A stretch of DNA of 64,000 bases from a virus, in IMG/VR virus record IMGVR_UViG_3300034358_000008, positions 1 to 64,000 of that record, one strand, 5' to 3'. Shown here in pieces: positions 32,822 through 50,275 of this stretch. The first letter of the stretch is position 1; every line of letters starts with the position of its first letter. Position numbers and translations under genes: made by a program. The notes beneath the pieces were generated by a model. The model worked only from the letters and a program-made list of their open reading frames with translations, had not been told where the DNA came from and did not search any database.

Positions 32822-33265
32822 GTGAAAAAGATCGATAACACAACATTCCTGATTGAAAGACAGGGCGAACTGGAACAGGTCGTCATTGACTATTTCAAGG
32901 GTGAAGCCGACGCCGGACTTATTCGTGGTCACGTCGCCGGAATCCCAAGTTGGTATTCTGTTTATTACTTAGAGGTGCCGACCGAGTATCCATTCGTTGC
33001 ATTACTAAATGATGACGATGAGCGTTGTAACATCGAATTCCAATATGTCAAACCTAGTGACTTCATCTGTATTGATGATGGTTCGCAACGTCTGTTCGAA
33101 TTCCAACTACGTCGGTCAATGACCTCAAGTCCTTATCGCGTGGTCGAGTCAACTTATCAAATACCCGCAAAAGATATCTTCGAGGCTCATCTCAAACTTG
33201 GTCAGACCATGCACCGAAGCGAAGAGTATGAACTGGAGGTCGTTTCCTATCAACAAGTTCGCTAA
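32822..33265 (+). CDS. hypothetical protein, GELxxxI paralog 1
   Basis: 147 residues from GTG 32822 (AAGGAG upstream). FLIERQGELEQVVIDYF, LIRGHVAG, TEYPFVALLNDDDE and FQYVKPSDFI align in order with the gene at 33479, so the two are paralogs separated by one small gene. Function unknown. First gene after the non-coding RNA. Confidence 0.74.
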   Translation: MKKIDNTTFLIERQGELEQVVIDYFKGEADAGLIRGHVAGIPSWYSVYYLEVPTEYPFVALLNDDDERCNIEFQYVKPSDFICIDDGSQRLFEFQLRRSMTSSPYRVVESTYQIPAKDIFEAHLKLGQTMHRSEEYELEVVSYQQVR

Positions 33266-33274
33266 GGAGTAAGT

Positions 33275-33469
33275 ATGACATTGCAAGATGAACTAGAAAA
33301 GCTTTACCGTACCGTGAGGAATCCACTCTTCCAAAATTACCGGCGGCATCCGGTACAGTTACGTTTGGTGGGTGTTGCCAGATTCAACATGTCCCAAAGT
33401 GAAGGTCAGGTAGGCAATGGTTTTATCACCACTGTAGACCGCTTGACTTACCGCCACTATATCGACTAA
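33275..33469 (+). CDS. small hypothetical protein
   Basis: 64 residues, AAGGAG upstream. Basic (YRTVRNPLFQNYRRHPVQLRLVG). Lies between two paralogs. Confidence 0.68.
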   Translation: MTLQDELEKLYRTVRNPLFQNYRRHPVQLRLVGVARFNMSQSEGQVGNGFITTVDRLTYRHYID

Positions 33470-33478
33470 GGAGGTACT

Positions 33479-33976
33479 GTGAAAGAATTAGCGCGTAATG
33501 ATGACATAGGTTCATCTGATGCTTATCGCTTTCTTATTGAATCGGAAGGCGAGTTACAAGAAGCGATCGGTAGTGTTATCGTAAAAGATAACCTTAGTCT
33601 TCGGGCAAGTGTCCGGGGCGCAGTAGACGTACCGGGGACGTATCCGTACATTGTTTGCATCTACGGTGATGAAGAATACGATTTCGTTTCACTGGCATTC
33701 GTAACAGTCTCTGATTTCTTTGATGGTCCGAATTACTGCCAACAAATCCGTGATCAGTTGATCAATGCTGAAACCATGAAATGTCAAATGGAACGCATCA
33801 ATGATGCAATCCAAGCCAAAGAGTCTGAAGTTGAGTTCCGTGATCTCGATGATGAGCCTAATCCAGATAATCAGTACTGTCTTAATAACGCACAAGCTGA
33901 ATGGTTTCGTCTGAGTGGCTTTAAAGTTAACTGGGAAAAATATCCACGCACGTGGAAGGTCTCTGGTTGGTTCTAA
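33479..33976 (+). CDS. hypothetical protein, GELxxxI paralog 2
   Basis: 165 residues from GTG 33479 (AAGGAGG upstream). FLIESEGELQEAIGSVI, LRASVRGA, TYPYIVCIYGDEE and FVTVSDFF match the gene at 32822. It is about 18 residues longer, with a Trp-rich C-terminus. Confidence 0.74.
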   Translation: MKELARNDDIGSSDAYRFLIESEGELQEAIGSVIVKDNLSLRASVRGAVDVPGTYPYIVCIYGDEEYDFVSLAFVTVSDFFDGPNYCQQIRDQLINAETMKCQMERINDAIQAKESEVEFRDLDDEPNPDNQYCLNNAQAEWFRLSGFKVNWEKYPRTWKVSGWF

Positions 33977-35931: not shown

Positions 35932-36306
35932 TTATTTCATTGTACGCTGAGTACGGAGCAGTTCGCGTGCACGAACCCACATCTTCTGGAACAGGTCTTT
36001 ACGTTGACGGATGACCTGATTGCCGCCACGGACAATATCAGTTGTTTCAATTTCAGGGTTATTCCGTGCTTCGTCCATCAAGTCATGCATGTGCTTTAGT
36101 GTAATGACTTGGTTCTCTTCGGTTAGCTGCGGATACAATCGATCGTATTCATCTGCGTAATCGAAGTCACGCGTAATACGGTAACCTACTGTACCGATGT
36201 CGATACGAAAGAAGCCACGGTAAGCATGGAAGCCTCCACCGATACGCCACATTTCATCACCGGGTTTGTTTACAAGCTTCTCTATTTTGAACTGAGGTAG
36301 TTTCAT
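35932..36306 (-). CDS. hypothetical protein
   Basis: 124 residues from the minus-strand ATG at 36306 (AGGTG upstream); the frame extends to 36360 inside the radical SAM gene. Central beta segment (WRIGGGFHAYRGFFRIDIGTVG) and charged C-terminus. Coupled to the gene before it. Confidence 0.72.
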   Translation of the reverse strand: MKLPQFKIEKLVNKPGDEMWRIGGGFHAYRGFFRIDIGTVGYRITRDFDYADEYDRLYPQLTEENQVITLKHMHDLMDEARNNPEIETTDIVRGGNQVIRQRKDLFQKMWVRARELLRTQRTMK

Positions 36307-36313
36307 GTTACAC

Positions 36314-37198
36314 CTATTTGAGGAAAGTCCCACAGGAAGCCTGTACATCTGTACCGACACGCGGGATTAGTTTGACACGGCCTTCAGGCAAGCGTCGTTT
36401 GATATAGCGGTAAAGGTAATCGATCTGACCGAATACAGGTTCACGTGACAGGTGTCCCTCTGGTGGATTGTAGCGAACGATATTCCAGTTAACGTCTAGT
36501 TGATAACCATCGATCTCATCTAGAATACACTTGACGTCATGGAGTGTGTCATTCTCGTGTTCAATGAAAGCGTAATGGATCTTTGGAACTTTACCGGTGT
36601 GGAGCTGCCATTCTTTAAGTGCACTAAACGCATTACGTGGGTATTGGGCTTTAGGTAACCAACGCCGACGGAATCGTTCGTTAAGCGAATATACAGAGTA
36701 GTACAACTCAGGGTAAACCGTTGGATCTTGGAATACGTTTACTAGACCCCTGTTACCGAACTCCTCAGGGAAGATAGTCGAGATCAGGAATTTAGCTTCC
36801 AATCCGTATGCAGCTGCACGTTCTTTCAACCCACGCAGAATCAAGTCAGCATTAGCTAAGAAGATCCTGTTGGCCAATGGTTCGCCACGCGCCATGAAAT
36901 TAAAGTGAACACGTTCAGCCGGATGTTTGGTAGCATAGTATGCCAATACTTCGTCCGCCTGCTGGAAATATTCCTCCACAGTGACGTCACGCAGATCAGT
37001 CTGTCCAGTGGCCGTCAACCAGCACATCCTACAAGCTTGCTTACAGCCCGTCTGAGAGCTTAAGTAAACAATGAAGTACTCGTCTGTCCTTCTTACATAA
37101 CGTGCCTCCAATCGTCCCCTGTGATCTTCAAAGACATGTTCGAAGTTAACGGATTGGTCTAATTGCGAATGGTGTTCTTTAAAGATCAGCTGGGTCAT
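36314..37198 (-). CDS. RlmN/Cfr-like radical SAM protein
   Basis: 294 residues. SSQTGCKQACRMCW holds the C-x3-C-x2-C iron-sulfur motif (Cys 52, 56, 59). FNFMARGEPLAN matches the RGMGEPLLN segment of RlmN and Cfr. RVGTDVQASCGTF near the end matches their methyl-carrying Cys (289 here). Those enzymes methylate adenine C2 or C8 in 23S rRNA, and RlmN also tRNA. Two oddities: the N-terminal accessory domain of about 70-90 residues is missing, and the second catalytic Cys, seven residues before the first cluster Cys in RlmN, is Tyr 45. The target RNA is unknown; the tRNA cluster nearby is suggestive. Confidence 0.82.
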   Translation of the reverse strand: MTQLIFKEHHSQLDQSVNFEHVFEDHRGRLEARYVRRTDEYFIVYLSSQTGCKQACRMCWLTATGQTDLRDVTVEEYFQQADEVLAYYATKHPAERVHFNFMARGEPLANRIFLANADLILRGLKERAAAYGLEAKFLISTIFPEEFGNRGLVNVFQDPTVYPELYYSVYSLNERFRRRWLPKAQYPRNAFSALKEWQLHTGKVPKIHYAFIEHENDTLHDVKCILDEIDGYQLDVNWNIVRYNPPEGHLSREPVFGQIDYLYRYIKRRLPEGRVKLIPRVGTDVQASCGTFLK

Positions 37199-37208
37199 GG
37201 TAGGTCCT

Positions 37209-37853
37209 TTAGTATTTATAAGGTGCTTGGGTTGAAAGCTCTTCTAGAGTTTGGTAAGTAGCCAACCAATCGGTAGGCCAGCCTTGAGCGAGTTCGTATA
37301 ACCGATCTAACAGAGCTTCCCAATCGTAACTTCGACCAGGGAGATATTCTACGAATAGCTGTGCCATACCGCCTGTCCGTAAAGTTACTTCCTTACTGAT
37401 CTCATCCATTCGTTCCCAATGAGCGTTAAGGTCTTTACTCTTCCAAGCAACGAATACATCGAAGTCATTGTAACTACATTCGTAGAAGTCTTGCGACAGG
37501 TCACCAATCAAACAACCGATGTCATAACGGGCTTTCTCTTTAATAGCCTCGTCAGTACGGAGAGATGGTACTTCTATCTTAATCTTGAATTTACCAATGT
37601 TGTACAACGTGATGATAACATTGACGTGACGTTCGCCTTTGGTGTTAACCCACAGGGAATAAACGACGTCGTGTGCATTGAGCATCTTATCCAGTTCACG
37701 TCGGACTATGTTTCGGAACGGTACTTGGTTAAGGTACTGGTGACGCTTAGCTATTAAAGATAGTTCTTTAGAGAAAGTTGTAACCCATTCATCAACGCTT
37801 GGATTGAAGCGACTCTTAACATGAACATGCGCGATAAAATCATGTAGGTACAT
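37209..37853 (-). CDS. hypothetical protein
   Basis: 214 residues, helical N-terminus, a beta-rich middle (VNVIITLYNIGKFKIKIEVP) and an aromatic C-terminus. Likely first gene of the minus-strand operon with the radical SAM gene. No family recognised. Confidence 0.73.
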   Translation of the reverse strand: MYLHDFIAHVHVKSRFNPSVDEWVTTFSKELSLIAKRHQYLNQVPFRNIVRRELDKMLNAHDVVYSLWVNTKGERHVNVIITLYNIGKFKIKIEVPSLRTDEAIKEKARYDIGCLIGDLSQDFYECSYNDFDVFVAWKSKDLNAHWERMDEISKEVTLRTGGMAQLFVEYLPGRSYDWEALLDRLYELAQGWPTDWLATYQTLEELSTQAPYKY

Positions 37854-41554: not shown

Positions 41555-41630
41555 TGGCACGCACCCCAAGAGTCGAACTCGGAACCAACTGCTTTGGAGG
41601 CAGCTGCTCTGCCAGTTGAGCTAGGCACGT
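41555..41630 (-). tRNA. tRNA-Trp (CCA)
   Basis: Minus-strand cloverleaf: acceptor ACGTGCC/GGTGCGT, D-arm AGCTCAACTGGCAGAGC, anticodon loop CTCCAAA, T-loop GTTCGACTC, discriminator G and encoded CCA. An ATAGTATGTA element begins 11 bases upstream. Confidence 0.95.
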
Positions 41631-41641
41631 ATTAATTCTTT

Positions 41642-41651
41642 TACATACTAT
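41642..41651 (-). promoter_or_regulatory. ATAGTATGTA element (2 of 4)
   Basis: GTAATAGTATGTAA on the minus strand, ending 11 bases before the first base of tRNA-Trp. The position suits a promoter core at about -10. Confidence 0.65.
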
Positions 41652-41959
41652 TACTTAGCGAGTAAACTTTTCACGTAAGCTTCCCATTCAAACACTGTAA
41701 AGATAGTCCTGAGTAGGTCACACGTTGATACACCATTTACATAGTTGATATGTAAAGTCTTTAACGAGTGAGCTGGTGTGATGTATGTTAAATTGGAATC
41801 GTATATATCATGCTTCACCAACAACCCATTGCATACATTACCTCCTTCGCTACAGAGGTATGTGATATGATGCCGTCTCTCAACGCCGGTCTCTTCGCAA
41901 TCTGCAACTGCATGATTTGATATTGTAATCATGTCTCTTTTACAACATGGACACTTCAT
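41651..41959 (-). CDS. small zinc-ribbon-like protein
   Basis: 102 residues. MKCPCCKRDM and the pair CSEGGNVCNG supply a possible four-Cys site with a His-rich segment between (RRHHITYLC). Such ribbons are common in phage regulators. Function not assigned. Confidence 0.7.
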   Translation of the reverse strand: MKCPCCKRDMITISNHAVADCEETGVERRHHITYLCSEGGNVCNGLLVKHDIYDSNLTYITPAHSLKTLHINYVNGVSTCDLLRTIFTVFEWEAYVKSLLAK

Positions 41960-41971
41960 AGTAGGTAACCT

Positions 41972-42142
41972 TTAGATAGTACATCTGCGGTTAAGCATTT
42001 CTTCCGTAGGACGTTGCTGCTTAGCCATCAGTGACAGTTGACGAGTCATCAATACCGTACGCATACGGGAACGCCTTAGCCGTGTGGCTTCATCAGGACC
42101 CATAGCCAACCTAGCTTTTTCATACAGTGCTTCTACTGACAT
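41972..42142 (-). CDS. 56-residue protein, RCTI-tail paralog 2
   Basis: Minus ATG at 42142; the frame is open further but crosses tRNA-Asn. Arg/Met-rich helix ending RPTEEMLNRRCTI. Pairs with 40725-40895. Confidence 0.7.
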   Translation of the reverse strand: MSVEALYEKARLAMGPDEATRLRRSRMRTVLMTRQLSLMAKQQRPTEEMLNRRCTI

Positions 42143-42170
42143 TTGAATAACCTTTAGGGAAAGACGGAAT

Positions 42171-42194
42171 AAGAGAACCCCGAAGGGCTCTCTT
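42171..42194 (-). terminator. intrinsic terminator after tRNA-Asn
   Basis: Minus-strand stem AAGAGAGCCC/GGGTTCTCTT (one mismatch) with TTCG loop, then ATTCCGTC. Starts five bases after the tRNA-Asn CCA. Confidence 0.82.
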
Positions 42195-42199
42195 AGAAT

Positions 42200-42275
42200 T
42201 GGCTCCATGACCTGGACTCGAACCAGGGACCACACCGTTAACAGCGGTGGGCTCTACCAACTGAGCTATCATGGA
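42200..42275 (-). tRNA. tRNA-Asn (GTT)
   Basis: Acceptor TCCATGA/TCATGGA, D-arm AGCTCAGTTGGTAGAGC, anticodon loop CTGTTAA, T-arm CCTGGTTCGAGTCCAGG, discriminator G, encoded CCA. Confidence 0.95.
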
Positions 42276-42359
42276 ATGTAACTGGGTGATTCTCCTAACG
42301 CCGTAACGTTAAGTTAAGACAGCATTTACTCAGGCGCAGCCGCTGCAAGAATCATGTAA

Positions 42360-42524
42360 CTATGCTTGCTGTTCACGTTTGTCAAGTATGTACTCGGCAT
42401 CGTTCACAGCTTCTTTTAGAACTTGTTTATCTAGCTTCAGATTTTTCCAGCTAAGTCGAGAGCAACACTGACAGTCAGCTGGTCCGAAGTTATCCAATGG
42501 ACGTGGTTTGATTTTTACTTTCAT
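42360..42524 (-). CDS. 54-residue protein with CxxCC
   Basis: Minus ATG at 42524 (GAGG upstream). Basic head (KVKIKPRPLDN), DCQCCSR knuckle, charged helix. Lies between tRNA-Asn and the tRNA-like stretch. Confidence 0.65.
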   Translation of the reverse strand: MKVKIKPRPLDNFGPADCQCCSRLSWKNLKLDKQVLKEAVNDAEYILDKREQQA

Positions 42525-42574
42525 CAGACACCTCTTTGAATAGGTAGAATGTAATGTCACTTTAACCAGCGTAA

Positions 42575-42712
42575 GCTAATAGCCCTGTTAGATAGGCGGG
42601 CCGTCCGAATCAAGGGAGTTGAACCCAAGTTCTACATTACATTCATACAACTGGCGACGGGCACTGTTTAGACTCAGTGCACGGTCAAGCACGCTTGGGA
42701 GGCGACCGTCAT
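42575..42712 (-). ncRNA. tRNA-like or decayed tRNA stretch
   Basis: On the minus strand: CGGTC/GACCG enclosing AAGC-GT-GCTT, then GCACTG/CAGTGC closing an 8-base loop AGTCTAAA (a CTA anticodon in tRNA register with one extra base), then a T-arm-like GGGTTCAACTCCC. No matching 5' acceptor strand or CCA is seen, so it is not called a tRNA. It lies between tRNA-Tyr and a small gene. Confidence 0.4.
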
Positions 42713-42717
42713 TAAAA

Positions 42718-42802
42718 TGGTGGAGAGACAAGGATTCGAACCTTGGAAGAATTAACGCCGGATTTACAGTCCGGTCCCTTTGAGCCGCTCGGGAATCTCT
42801 CC
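42718..42802 (-). tRNA. tRNA-Tyr (GTA)
   Basis: Acceptor GGAGAGA/TCTCTCC, anticodon arm CCGGACTGTAAATCCGG, long variable arm as expected for bacterial tRNA-Tyr, T-arm AAGGTTCGAATCCTT, discriminator A and encoded CCA. Confidence 0.95.
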
Positions 42803-46477: not shown

Positions 46478-47719
46478 ATGATCGAACAATTACTGATTAT
46501 TTCAGGTTTTGAGTCTGATGTCAATGACGACCATGATTTACCCTTCCCGACAGGGACACCTTTTAAAGGGGTAGTGCGAGCTAAAAACTTCATTACAGGT
46601 GATGCACTAGCTGATGAAATAGGATTGGTTCAAGGCATCTCTATTAACAGCAACGCGGGGTGGTTACACTTCGTGGAAGAAAATGGTTACAACATCTACC
46701 TGGCTAAGAAACCACTACGTTTTAATCTAGGTTGGCCGAGTATAAATAACGCCCAGTTAGATAAAGAAATCGTTTTGGATGGTAAGACATTCAACGTTGA
46801 ATTTATAACGGGTATGAGACGAGACGGTCTACCAGCTTTGAAGGGTAACGCTGGCGGCGCTTGGAACAGATACATCTATAACGTGTATGGTGGTGAGCGT
46901 GCAGATGAGCTACCTAATACCCGATTGAACTGGGGCTCGTACACTGAGGCTATGTTGGGTATTCCTCTTGACTCAGCTGGTGCTACACCGTTAGCCTCAT
47001 TCTGTTGGGTTAAGGAACTTGATAGTACTGGTGGTCATGCGACACGCGGTGTAAGTTATAGTGACGCTAATGTTCCTAACGTAATGGGTGTATGGTACGG
47101 TGGGCAAGATGATATAGCCATCCACTATGCGTGGAGACCCATGCTTGTAGAGAAAGGTACATTCCCTCCTGTTCCAGTAACCCCATTTAAGGGCGAAGTT
47201 GCACAAGCTGATTTCATTACTTTTAGTGATCTGGCTACAGCGGTTGGTGTTACCGAGGGTACACCACTCAACACTGACGCCCCATGGCTGAAGATTGAAC
47301 TGGGTGAGACTACCTATTACTGGCCTAAGGCCTCTATCCGGGGTAGCGTTCTACGTGAAACACTTAATACCCTGAATCTCGTAACAGGTGACACCACGGT
47401 TATTATTGGTGGACTTACGTATAAAGTACGTTTGATCAAAGGTCGGGATGCAGCACAATCTGACGTCATCGGTGAGGAATGGTTAGAATGGCTAACCCAT
47501 TTAACCAACGGTGATTGGGCGGAATACTCAACCGCACAACTGGTAACTGGTACTGGTGGTACAGGTAATGGTGAGCTAGTGCTGACTCAAGAACTTGCAG
47601 CTAACGGTTTCTGGGCAGCTAACGGTTACCCTACGTTACTGGGTTCTGGCTGGTATCAATCGACTGGCGCAACTCATGATGGCTATGGTTGGAGACCTGT
47701 TCTCGAGCTAGTGCCGTAA
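46478..47719 (+). CDS. lectin/FGE-like tandem protein 1 (probable adhesin)
   Basis: 413 residues built from two repeats, about 27-225 and 235-413, each opening TPFKG then strand, helix and a (P/G)W-L-hydrophobic segment. Each repeat holds a W-N-R-Y or EWLEWL helix and ends YAWRPML or YGWRPVLEL. EW-x-R-Y plus a final GWRPxL recall the RLPTEAEW and GFR signatures of the FGE-sulfatase/C-type lectin fold used in phage receptor-binding proteins. Three such genes lie in a row. Tail fibre or capsid decoration is inferred. Confidence 0.7.
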   Translation: MIEQLLIISGFESDVNDDHDLPFPTGTPFKGVVRAKNFITGDALADEIGLVQGISINSNAGWLHFVEENGYNIYLAKKPLRFNLGWPSINNAQLDKEIVLDGKTFNVEFITGMRRDGLPALKGNAGGAWNRYIYNVYGGERADELPNTRLNWGSYTEAMLGIPLDSAGATPLASFCWVKELDSTGGHATRGVSYSDANVPNVMGVWYGGQDDIAIHYAWRPMLVEKGTFPPVPVTPFKGEVAQADFITFSDLATAVGVTEGTPLNTDAPWLKIELGETTYYWPKASIRGSVLRETLNTLNLVTGDTTVIIGGLTYKVRLIKGRDAAQSDVIGEEWLEWLTHLTNGDWAEYSTAQLVTGTGGTGNGELVLTQELAANGFWAANGYPTLLGSGWYQSTGATHDGYGWRPVLELVP

Positions 47720-47729
47720 CATTATAAAG

Positions 47730-47750
47730 CCCCTCCCGTTAAAGGAGGGG
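47730..47750 (+). terminator. terminator between lectin-like genes 1 and 2
   Basis: Stem CCCCTCC/GGAGGGG, loop CGTTAAA, flanked by TATAAAG and TCTTATG. Confidence 0.8.
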
Positions 47751-47815
47751 TCTTATGCCGGTCAAGCATTATCTTAATTGTATGATTACTACTATTACGC
47801 TTGGGGAATCCTATT

Positions 47816-49054
47816 ATGTTTGAACAACTCCTGGTGGCTGCTCCTAAAGCCCCCATAACGGACGACAGCGATTTGCCCTTTCCGGCTGGGACGCCATTTA
47901 AAGGAGTAGTGCACGCTAGTAATTTTATTAACGGCGCTCAGCTGGCTACTCAGATTGGATTGGTGAATGGAGTTCCCATCAATAGCGATGCAGGCTGGTT
48001 GCACTTTATAGAAGACAATGGATACAACGTCTACATCGCTAAGAAACCTTTACGTGCTGGAGTCACTTGGCAACAAATTGACACGGCGCAAACCGGTAAA
48101 GAAATCATCATTGGCGGTAAGACATTCTTGGTTACCTTTATCACCGGGTTGAAAACTGCTGGTATGCCTGCGGTTATCGGAAACTCTGGTGGGCAATGGA
48201 ACCGATATATTTACAACGTTTACGGTGGGGAATTTGCTTCAGCTCTACCAGCGGACCGCTTGAACTGGGGTTCTTATACCGAGAAGATGTTGGGGATACC
48301 ATTGCTCACTGAGGGTATTAGTGTCATGGCTTCTTTTAACTATGTTAAAGAAACTAGTTCTAGTGCTTCAGGGGCGCACATCACCCGTGGTATGACCTAC
48401 CCAACAGCGGCAGGTAAACCAAACGTACTCGGTGTGTGGTACGGTGCTCCAAGTAACGGTGAGATGAACTATGGTTGGCGCCCTCTGCTATATGAGAAAG
48501 GCACTACTCCACCAGTACCAATAACACCGTTTAAAGGTGAAGTTGCGCAAGCTGATTTAATTACGTTGGCTGCACTGAGAACTGCAACTGGTTATGCTGG
48601 TGGTACATCTCTGAATCCGACTGCTCCATGGATGATGATTGTAGAGAATGGTAAAACATTCTATTTCCCTAAAGCACCATTGTTGATGACGATGAGTCGT
48701 GAACAACTTAACGCAGCTGGTCTGGTAGATGGTAGTAAAGTAATTACCATTGCCGGTAAGCAGTATAAAGTTCGTTTGATGACTGGTCGAGATACTGCGG
48801 TGAACAGTACATCAGGTGGCGAATGGTTACGATGGATGACCAATCTGACTGATGGTACATGGGCAACATACCCAACAGCTGATCTTGGTGGACCATACCC
48901 AATGAACGGTGGCATGACACACGTCTGGGATAGACATGGTGATAACAACTGGGCACTAAGTGGTTATCCAGGTTTCCTTGGCGCTTGGTATCAAATCCTA
49001 GGATCAGCAGCCGATCCAGCTTATGGGTGGCGCCCAGTATTAGAATTGATTTAG
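47816..49054 (+). CDS. lectin/FGE-like tandem protein 2 (probable adhesin)
   Basis: 412 residues from ATG 47816 (GGGGAA upstream). Same two-repeat plan as protein 1, with TPFKGVVHASNFI and TPFKGEVAQADLI opening the repeats, QWNRYIYNVYGGEF in repeat 1, and YGWRPVLELI at the end. Repeat 1 of the three genes is better conserved than repeat 2. It has its own leader behind a terminator, so it may be expressed separately. Confidence 0.7.
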   Translation: MFEQLLVAAPKAPITDDSDLPFPAGTPFKGVVHASNFINGAQLATQIGLVNGVPINSDAGWLHFIEDNGYNVYIAKKPLRAGVTWQQIDTAQTGKEIIIGGKTFLVTFITGLKTAGMPAVIGNSGGQWNRYIYNVYGGEFASALPADRLNWGSYTEKMLGIPLLTEGISVMASFNYVKETSSSASGAHITRGMTYPTAAGKPNVLGVWYGAPSNGEMNYGWRPLLYEKGTTPPVPITPFKGEVAQADLITLAALRTATGYAGGTSLNPTAPWMMIVENGKTFYFPKAPLLMTMSREQLNAAGLVDGSKVITIAGKQYKVRLMTGRDTAVNSTSGGEWLRWMTNLTDGTWATYPTADLGGPYPMNGGMTHVWDRHGDNNWALSGYPGFLGAWYQILGSAADPAYGWRPVLELI

Positions 49055-49063
49055 GGGAATATC

Positions 49064-50275
49064 ATGTTTGAAATGATGCTAACTACGGCATTTAAGCTAG
49101 GGTTACCAGATAACTCAGATTTACCGTTCCCATCGGGTACTCCTTTCCAAGGTGTAGTGAGTGCAAGTAACTTTATTACAGGTACCGCTTTAGCGTCAGC
49201 AATAAGTTTAACCCAAGGTACTGGGATGAATAGCGACGCGGGCTGGTTGCACTTTATAGAAGACAATGGATTAGAACTGTACATTGCGAAGAAACCACTA
49301 CGTTACAATGTCACGTGGGAAGAAATTAACGTTCGTCAGAAAGCCACTGAAGTTACTATCGGTGGTGAGGTTTACGTGGTTAAATTCTTAACCGGTATGA
49401 CTGCTCCTAATCTGATGGCTGCCCCTGCTAACCGGGGTGGCCAATGGAATAGATACATCTATAACGTGTATGGTGGACCATATAAATCGTCACTACCTGC
49501 TGGTACATTGAACTGGGGACCTTATTCCGAAAGTATGCTCGGTATTTACACGGCTGGGCAATCTCAAGAAAATGGTGGGTTATGTCTAATGGCAGAGCCC
49601 GTAACTCAAGGTGGTCATGCGACACGAGGGGTCTCATGGACTGATTCCAGCGATCCTAACATCATGGGGTTATGGTACATCACCCCTAATACCCCACGTA
49701 CGTGGTATGGTTGGCGCCCGGTATTGTTCAAGAAATCGACCTTACCACCAACACCTTATAAAGGTCTGGTAGCTGGTGCTAGTCTGATTACTCCGTCGGC
49801 TTTATCTACCTTGGCGGGTTACACTAGTGGTACGCTTATGGATGATGCTACCCCATGGATGCACTTCATTGAAGACAACGGTAAGGAAGTTTACGTTGCG
49901 CAGAGGTCATTTCGTGATAAGTGTACTAGAGCTAGTTTGAACACTGCCGGGATTGGTAATACGGCTAATGGTAAAACTCTCACGATTGGAGGCAAACAGT
50001 ATAAGTGTCGTTTGTTGACAGAGGCTGAGTGGAACCGTTACATGTACGGTGTGTATGGTGATACGTACACAACGGTAAACACGTTGGAATGGGCATCCTT
50101 TAATGATGCTCAGTTGGGTGTTTGTGCAGGCGGTGTAATCGCTGGTGGTCTTAGTCATACCTTCGATGGTACTACCCGTGGATTCACATCCATTGCTGGG
50201 GCTTGGCAAACCAACGACGGTTCACCCGGTACGTCAGGTTATGCATGGCGTCCAATTCTGGAACTCATTCCGTAA
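49064..50275 (+). CDS. lectin/FGE-like tandem protein 3 (probable adhesin)
   Basis: 403 residues, nine bases after protein 2. Its second repeat shows the FGE-like signature most clearly: KCRLLTEAEWNRYMYGVYGD, with YAWRPILELIP at the end. TPFQGVV and TPYKGLV open the repeats. Cys residues are confined to repeat 2. Confidence 0.72.
   Translation: MFEMMLTTAFKLGLPDNSDLPFPSGTPFQGVVSASNFITGTALASAISLTQGTGMNSDAGWLHFIEDNGLELYIAKKPLRYNVTWEEINVRQKATEVTIGGEVYVVKFLTGMTAPNLMAAPANRGGQWNRYIYNVYGGPYKSSLPAGTLNWGPYSESMLGIYTAGQSQENGGLCLMAEPVTQGGHATRGVSWTDSSDPNIMGLWYITPNTPRTWYGWRPVLFKKSTLPPTPYKGLVAGASLITPSALSTLAGYTSGTLMDDATPWMHFIEDNGKEVYVAQRSFRDKCTRASLNTAGIGNTANGKTLTIGGKQYKCRLLTEAEWNRYMYGVYGDTYTTVNTLEWASFNDAQLGVCAGGVIAGGLSHTFDGTTRGFTSIAGAWQTNDGSPGTSGYAWRPILELIP

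Follow-up and report, generated by a model that had tools for sequence, protein, structure and literature searches.

A radical-SAM protein of the RlmN/Cfr type, in which the second catalytic cysteine is replaced by a tyrosine (Tyr45), was found to be encoded on the minus strand at positions 36314-37198 of the window, the stretch of 64,000 nucleotides of viral DNA that was analysed, and the same tyrosine was found to be fixed throughout a family present in huge phages, megaplasmids and scattered bacteria. The protein is predicted to be an active enzyme, an offshoot of the RlmN/Cfr group (class A) in which Tyr45 would act as general base and/or radical quencher, and a probability of about 0.5 was assigned to this reading. 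For the clade as a whole, at the same even odds, the tyrosine would serve as base and radical quencher, or the methyl-cysteine radical would end in a new RNA modification. Since the second catalytic cysteine is always a tyrosine here, the family enzymes must finish the reaction otherwise than RlmN and Cfr or carry out another one.

The gene was found to encode 294 amino acids from an ATG start (stop codon included in the coordinates) and was preceded by a likely ribosome-binding site, AAAGGA (37205-37210, minus strand), 5′ of the ATG. The upstream neighbour (37209-37853, minus strand), which had no match in Pfam or PHROG, was found to end 10 bp before the start codon on the same strand, so that no space is left for an N-terminal domain, and a domain hidden upstream was thereby ruled out. 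The downstream neighbour (35932-36306, minus strand) is of unknown function, and its relatives were found near the family gene in L002, L004, L009 and phage 201phi2-1 (L043). Three tRNA genes (Trp, Asn and Tyr; 41555-42802, minus strand) were located on the same strand, at a distance of 4.4-5.6 kb upstream, and serve as context only, and the RtcB gene of this genome was located elsewhere, away from the RlmN-like gene. On the plus strand, three consecutive open reading frames of 403-417 amino acids (46478-50275) resembled tandem paralogues when compared by eye. Two adjoining frames of 147 and 165 amino acids (32822-33976, plus strand) were also alike by eye, and relatives of the second of these were found near the family gene in L002, L004, L009 and L043.

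The AlphaFold2 model of the window protein had a mean pLDDT of 94.7, the loop of Cys289 being its least certain part (pLDDT about 60), a point that weighs against the preferred reading. The best VIA-align match was the Sphaerobacter radical-SAM methyltransferase 6fz6 (Z 28.3), followed by the tRNA-crosslinked C118A RlmN structures 5hr7 (Z 28.2) and 5hr6 (Z 28.0), Cfr (9p0p; Z 19.4) and the next other radical-SAM fold (Z 17.1). The radical-SAM superfamily features were present, namely the CxxxCxxC motif in a partial TIM barrel and a fold matching many radical-SAM structures, and the catalytic part of the modelled protein is of the RlmN/Cfr radical-SAM fold. The structural match was found to span residues 77-360 of RlmN, the domain of residues 1-76 being missing, which bears out the preliminary description, where the N-terminal accessory domain was given as absent.

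The residues were mapped onto E. coli RlmN (3rf9, in its native numbering) by an alignment with a profile built from 83 relatives. The codon of Glu31 (37106-37108, minus strand) was found to correspond to RlmN Glu105, a glutamate in 108/108 family members and 27/27 references, followed by the Tyr45 codon TAC (37064-37066, minus strand) at the site of RlmN Cys118, with one extra residue between Glu31 and Tyr45 relative to the Glu105-Cys118 spacing. The placement of Tyr45 at the Cys118 site, which had been proposed from the sequence alone, was found again in the profile alignment, where YLSSQTGC stood against CVSSQVGC of RlmN without a gap up to the cluster. Misalignment at this site was ruled out by the gap-free motif together with the independent profile alignment, and no other cysteine was aligned at the resolving site. 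The cluster motif (37022-37045, minus strand) contained Cys52, Cys56 and Cys59, corresponding to RlmN C125, C129 and C132, respectively, and the methyl-carrying Cys289 (codon 36332-36334, minus strand) corresponded to RlmN Cys355, so that both the cluster cysteines and the methyl carrier were retained as first described. The residues M102 and N244 were found to correspond to RlmN M176 and N312, and in the joint alignment of 108 members E31, C52/56/59, M102, N244 and C289 (the latter in 108/108) were invariant.

Other positions were fixed in the family in a form that differs from RlmN and Cfr. These were V107R, M178R, H235Y, E278H and L358F in RlmN numbering, together with the positions directly after the cluster. 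The family-invariant Arg104 (codon 36887-36889), Tyr170 (36689-36691) and His208 (36575-36577), all on the minus strand, were found to correspond to RlmN Met178, His235 and Glu278, respectively.

The tyrosine at the Cys118 site was found in 112/112 family loci with an intact motif, from jumbo phages, megaplasmids and scattered bacteria, including L056, where a chance motif precedes the true site, which reads tyrosine. The joint alignment contained tyrosine in 108/108 family members versus cysteine in 27/27 references (RlmN, Cfr, PRK14464 and phage-borne RlmN), and among a further 33 loci cysteine was found in 32, the remaining one being a member of the tyrosine family. Near relatives are among the proteins in these tyrosine counts, and thinning at 75% similarity left 66 family members. 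The tyrosine proteins formed one clade in the maximum-likelihood tree (support 100/98), separate from RlmN and Cfr, and this, together with the 112/112 count, argues that the tyrosine itself is selected. Between the window gene and its near relatives, dN was 0.16-0.27 with synonymous sites near saturation, and the protein is therefore under purifying selection. A single odd gene or a pseudogene was ruled out by the 112 tyrosine loci, the clade support and the low dN.

The only invariant cysteines of the family were found to be C52, C56, C59 and C289, and 19 of the 108 members in the joint alignment contained exactly these four; a cysteine one residue before the tyrosine was present in 16/108 only. 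No other cysteine of the protein can therefore resolve the adduct, and an internal cysteine as resolver was ruled out. Of the suggestion in the preliminary description that another resolving residue may be used, the part concerning an internal cysteine thus falls away, and a residue other than cysteine may still take this role.

The second cysteine of RlmN and Cfr is held to be indispensable, and its role as base, disulfide former or radical quencher is debated. Glu105 of RlmN has been proposed to deprotonate Cys355, the methyl acceptor, after which the methylene radical adds to the adenine (PMC9692996). The C118A variant forms a stable RNA adduct, which is seen in 5hr7, and recent evidence gives C118 as a general base, the adduct fragmenting homolytically to the Cys355 thiyl (PMC9692996). 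The role of C118 assumed at the outset is corrected in one point: by current evidence the residue would be mainly a general base, through which the RNA adduct can fragment, and less a disulfide-forming resolver, which makes its replacement by tyrosine easier to understand.

The following course would be consistent with the residues found. Glu31 would deprotonate Cys289, which would accept a methyl group from SAM, followed by the cleavage of a second SAM at the Cys52/56/59 cluster, whereby the 5′-deoxyadenosyl radical would turn the methyl-cysteine into a methylene radical. This radical would be added to C2 or C8 of an adenine in the RNA to form a covalent adduct, and all residues needed to reach this adduct are kept in the family. 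Tyr45, in the place of Cys118, would then take the proton from that carbon, and the C-S bond would break. The RNA would be left methylated and Cys289 as a thiyl radical, which may be quenched by Tyr45 (or Tyr170), a disulfide being unnecessary. At neutral pH, a thiol is a stronger base than the phenol of tyrosine, which counts against Tyr45 as the base. The finding that C118A RlmN makes no m2A (PMC5130265) also counts against this assignment, and the other changed conserved positions, which likewise weigh against the preferred reading, could point to a changed substrate or product.

In a rival reading the product or the substrate is a different one. The methylene radical would be formed as in RlmN, but a remodelled pocket (Tyr45, Arg104, Tyr170 and His208) would bring the reaction to a different end or act on a different base or molecule, and the modification would be neither m2A nor m8A. 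This is a tentative possibility, consistent with V107R, M178R, H235Y, E278H, L358F and the post-cluster residues being fixed otherwise than in RlmN and Cfr, with the missing N-terminal domain and with the hosts retaining an RlmN of their own, so that the activity need not match; but the exactly kept Glu31, Met102, Asn244 and Cys289 loop suggest that the early steps are the same and the target similar. An external thiol (glutathione, thioredoxin or a partner protein) would resolve the adduct or the thiyl in an ordinary methylation with Tyr45 as a structural residue only, for which the 19 members without any internal cysteine to spare would speak; the invariance of the tyrosine across the family would then be left unexplained, no conserved redox partner was found beside the gene among the neighbours in the family loci, and this course is unlikely.

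The stable RNA adduct of C118A RlmN in 5hr7 (PMC9692996) would be the precedent for a single-use protein that is covalently held on host RNA and blocks translation or a defence RNA. Such a trap needs the loss of the base alone, without need for an invariant tyrosine, and bacterial genomes and megaplasmids, for which a trap ought to be a burden, keep the gene as well, so that a trap is quite improbable. The changed catalytic residue and the lost N-terminal domain would also fit an inactive or decaying copy of RlmN acquired by a phage, but the remaining catalytic residues are invariant, dN is low with near-saturated synonymous sites, and the proteins form one old, widely spread clade; the selection pattern already makes a decaying copy unlikely, and together these points leave it hardly credible.

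Relatives of the window protein were found in the Pseudomonas jumbo phages 201phi2-1, Phabio, Psa21, D6, Viktualia and RVTF4, in Caulobacter and Brevundimonas jumbo phages and in IMG/VR contigs reaching 465 kb, and also on large plasmids of Pseudomonas (pMPPla107 and pBASL58), Acetobacter, Acidiphilium, Rhizobium and Miltoncostaea. The bacterial relatives were scattered over Planctomycetota, Myxococcota, Actinomycetota, Pseudomonadota and further groups, with many MAGs among the genomes. Chromosomal copies were rare: the class to which the Achromobacter host belongs is represented by 274 genomes, and among the matches listed the host's own genome was the sole one with a copy. A separate RlmN-type protein was found in 10/12 host genomes, in nine of them over the cut-off, and all of the host RlmN-type proteins read at the Cys118 site contained cysteine. 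The hosts thus keep their own RlmN with its cysteine, and the tyrosine protein is therefore an addition and no replacement. No RlmN over the cut-off was found in the 20 phage records searched. The surroundings of the gene (about 24 kb) on pBASL58 (L046) and pMPPla107 (L047) contained long same-strand runs of genes for hypothetical proteins, many of 350-450 amino acids, and none of the three tested had a Pfam match.

The neighbouring genes suggest tRNA as the likely substrate of the family enzyme. The tRNA genes were located within about 4 kb in 8/11 Pseudomonas jumbo-phage relatives scanned, 18 tRNA genes were found around the family gene in L101, and a CCA-adding enzyme was encoded 2.1-2.4 kb downstream of the gene in three Brevundimonas phages. 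In seven loci, the surroundings of the gene included a member of a gene family of the RtcB type (identified by Pfam in L008 and annotated as RtcB in phage D6). Most other loci did not contain a tRNA gene close by, and this patchy tRNA context was counted against the preferred reading; no neighbour common to the whole family was found among the family loci as a clue to the substrate. Many jumbo phages encode tRNAs and RNA ligases of their own. An AbiEii-type nucleotidyltransferase was encoded divergently from the gene in 8/8 planctomycete-type loci (L054-L057 and L059-L062), and this neighbour, of a type IV toxin family, may possibly connect the gene with tRNA or with a toxin-antitoxin system.

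Further features were observed around the family gene. Recurring tRNAs on the same strand (Trp-CCA, Leu-UAA, Leu-UAG, Ser-UGA, Cys-GCA and Thr-UGU) were located 0-4 kb upstream in L013 and other Pseudomonas jumbo-phage relatives, and a leucine-rich-repeat protein was also encoded divergently, just upstream of the gene, in L054-L057 and L059-L062. Predicted tRNAs with a CUA anticodon (ARAGORN: tRNA-Pyl) were found within about 2 kb of the gene in the two viral contigs L108 (1871-2026) and L109 (2135-2209), and these are possibly amber-suppressor tRNAs. A defence protein was ruled out, no PADLOC match being found at E 0.01.

The window protein scored 54.1 bits with TIGR00048 (RlmN) versus a cut-off of 290, which was not reached, and 39-44 bits with the Cfr models, far below the Cfr family cut-offs. 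Depositors have named family members 'RlmN', 'RNA methyltransferase' or 'Fe-S-cluster redox'. The family protein most likely works like an RNA-adenosine methylase, but it lacks two defining features of RlmN and Cfr, the second cysteine and the N-terminal domain, and the name RlmN should not be applied to it. No published account of the family or of the fixed cysteine-to-tyrosine change was found in the open-licence literature, and the terms 'radical SAM' and 'RlmN' are absent from the main text of a jumbo-phage survey (PMC7824862). The orthologous group is already known from PHROGs. A natural clade with a fixed tyrosine for the second cysteine makes the question of the role of this cysteine directly testable, and the reading given for the clade as a whole, if true, would add a new completion route to a methyl-cysteine mechanism that was thought to need two cysteines. 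The clade is also a pointer to an activity of jumbo phages that is probably RNA-modifying and has no description so far.

RlmN is a dual-specificity C2-methylase of 23S rRNA A2503 and tRNA A37, and Cfr is the C8-methylase of 23S rRNA A2503. The window protein resembles RlmN in its fold (Z 28), its cluster motif and its equivalents of Glu105, Met176, Asn312 and Cys355, and differs from it in the tyrosine for Cys118, the missing N-terminal domain and the M178R, H235Y and E278H changes. Cfr (9p0p) was the best sequence match among solved structures and has the same cluster and a C-terminal methyl-carrying cysteine (C338), whereas its second site contains a cysteine (L146; C105) where the window protein contains tyrosine. 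The window protein is a member of PHROG 27142, 'Fe-S-cluster redox domain-containing' (full-length match, E 2e-145, residues 1-294 on profile positions 1-300), a group to which no reaction is assigned and whose label does not mention the cysteine-to-tyrosine change. The RlmN-like proteins of Klebsiella phage 05F01 and Tunturiibacter phage Tunturi_5 share with the family the CHxT after the cluster, His208 and the C-terminal CGMF, whereas the site residue is valine in 05F01 and cysteine in Tunturi_5. Both were found to attach between RlmN/Cfr and the tyrosine clade in the maximum-likelihood tree on long branches, which makes their placement unsure, and viral-contig scans with these two proteins yielded no more relatives. 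The 05F01 protein (L037:3863-4789) contained, besides this valine, a cysteine four residues before the cluster, and is perhaps a second way to dispense with Cys118. A chemical precedent for the quenching step is given by spore photoproduct lyase, a radical-SAM enzyme in which the thiyl of Cys141 is proposed to be quenched by Tyr99 (PMC5368176), although it is a DNA repair enzyme and no methylase, and has no more in common with the window protein than the general radical-SAM fold (Z about 14).
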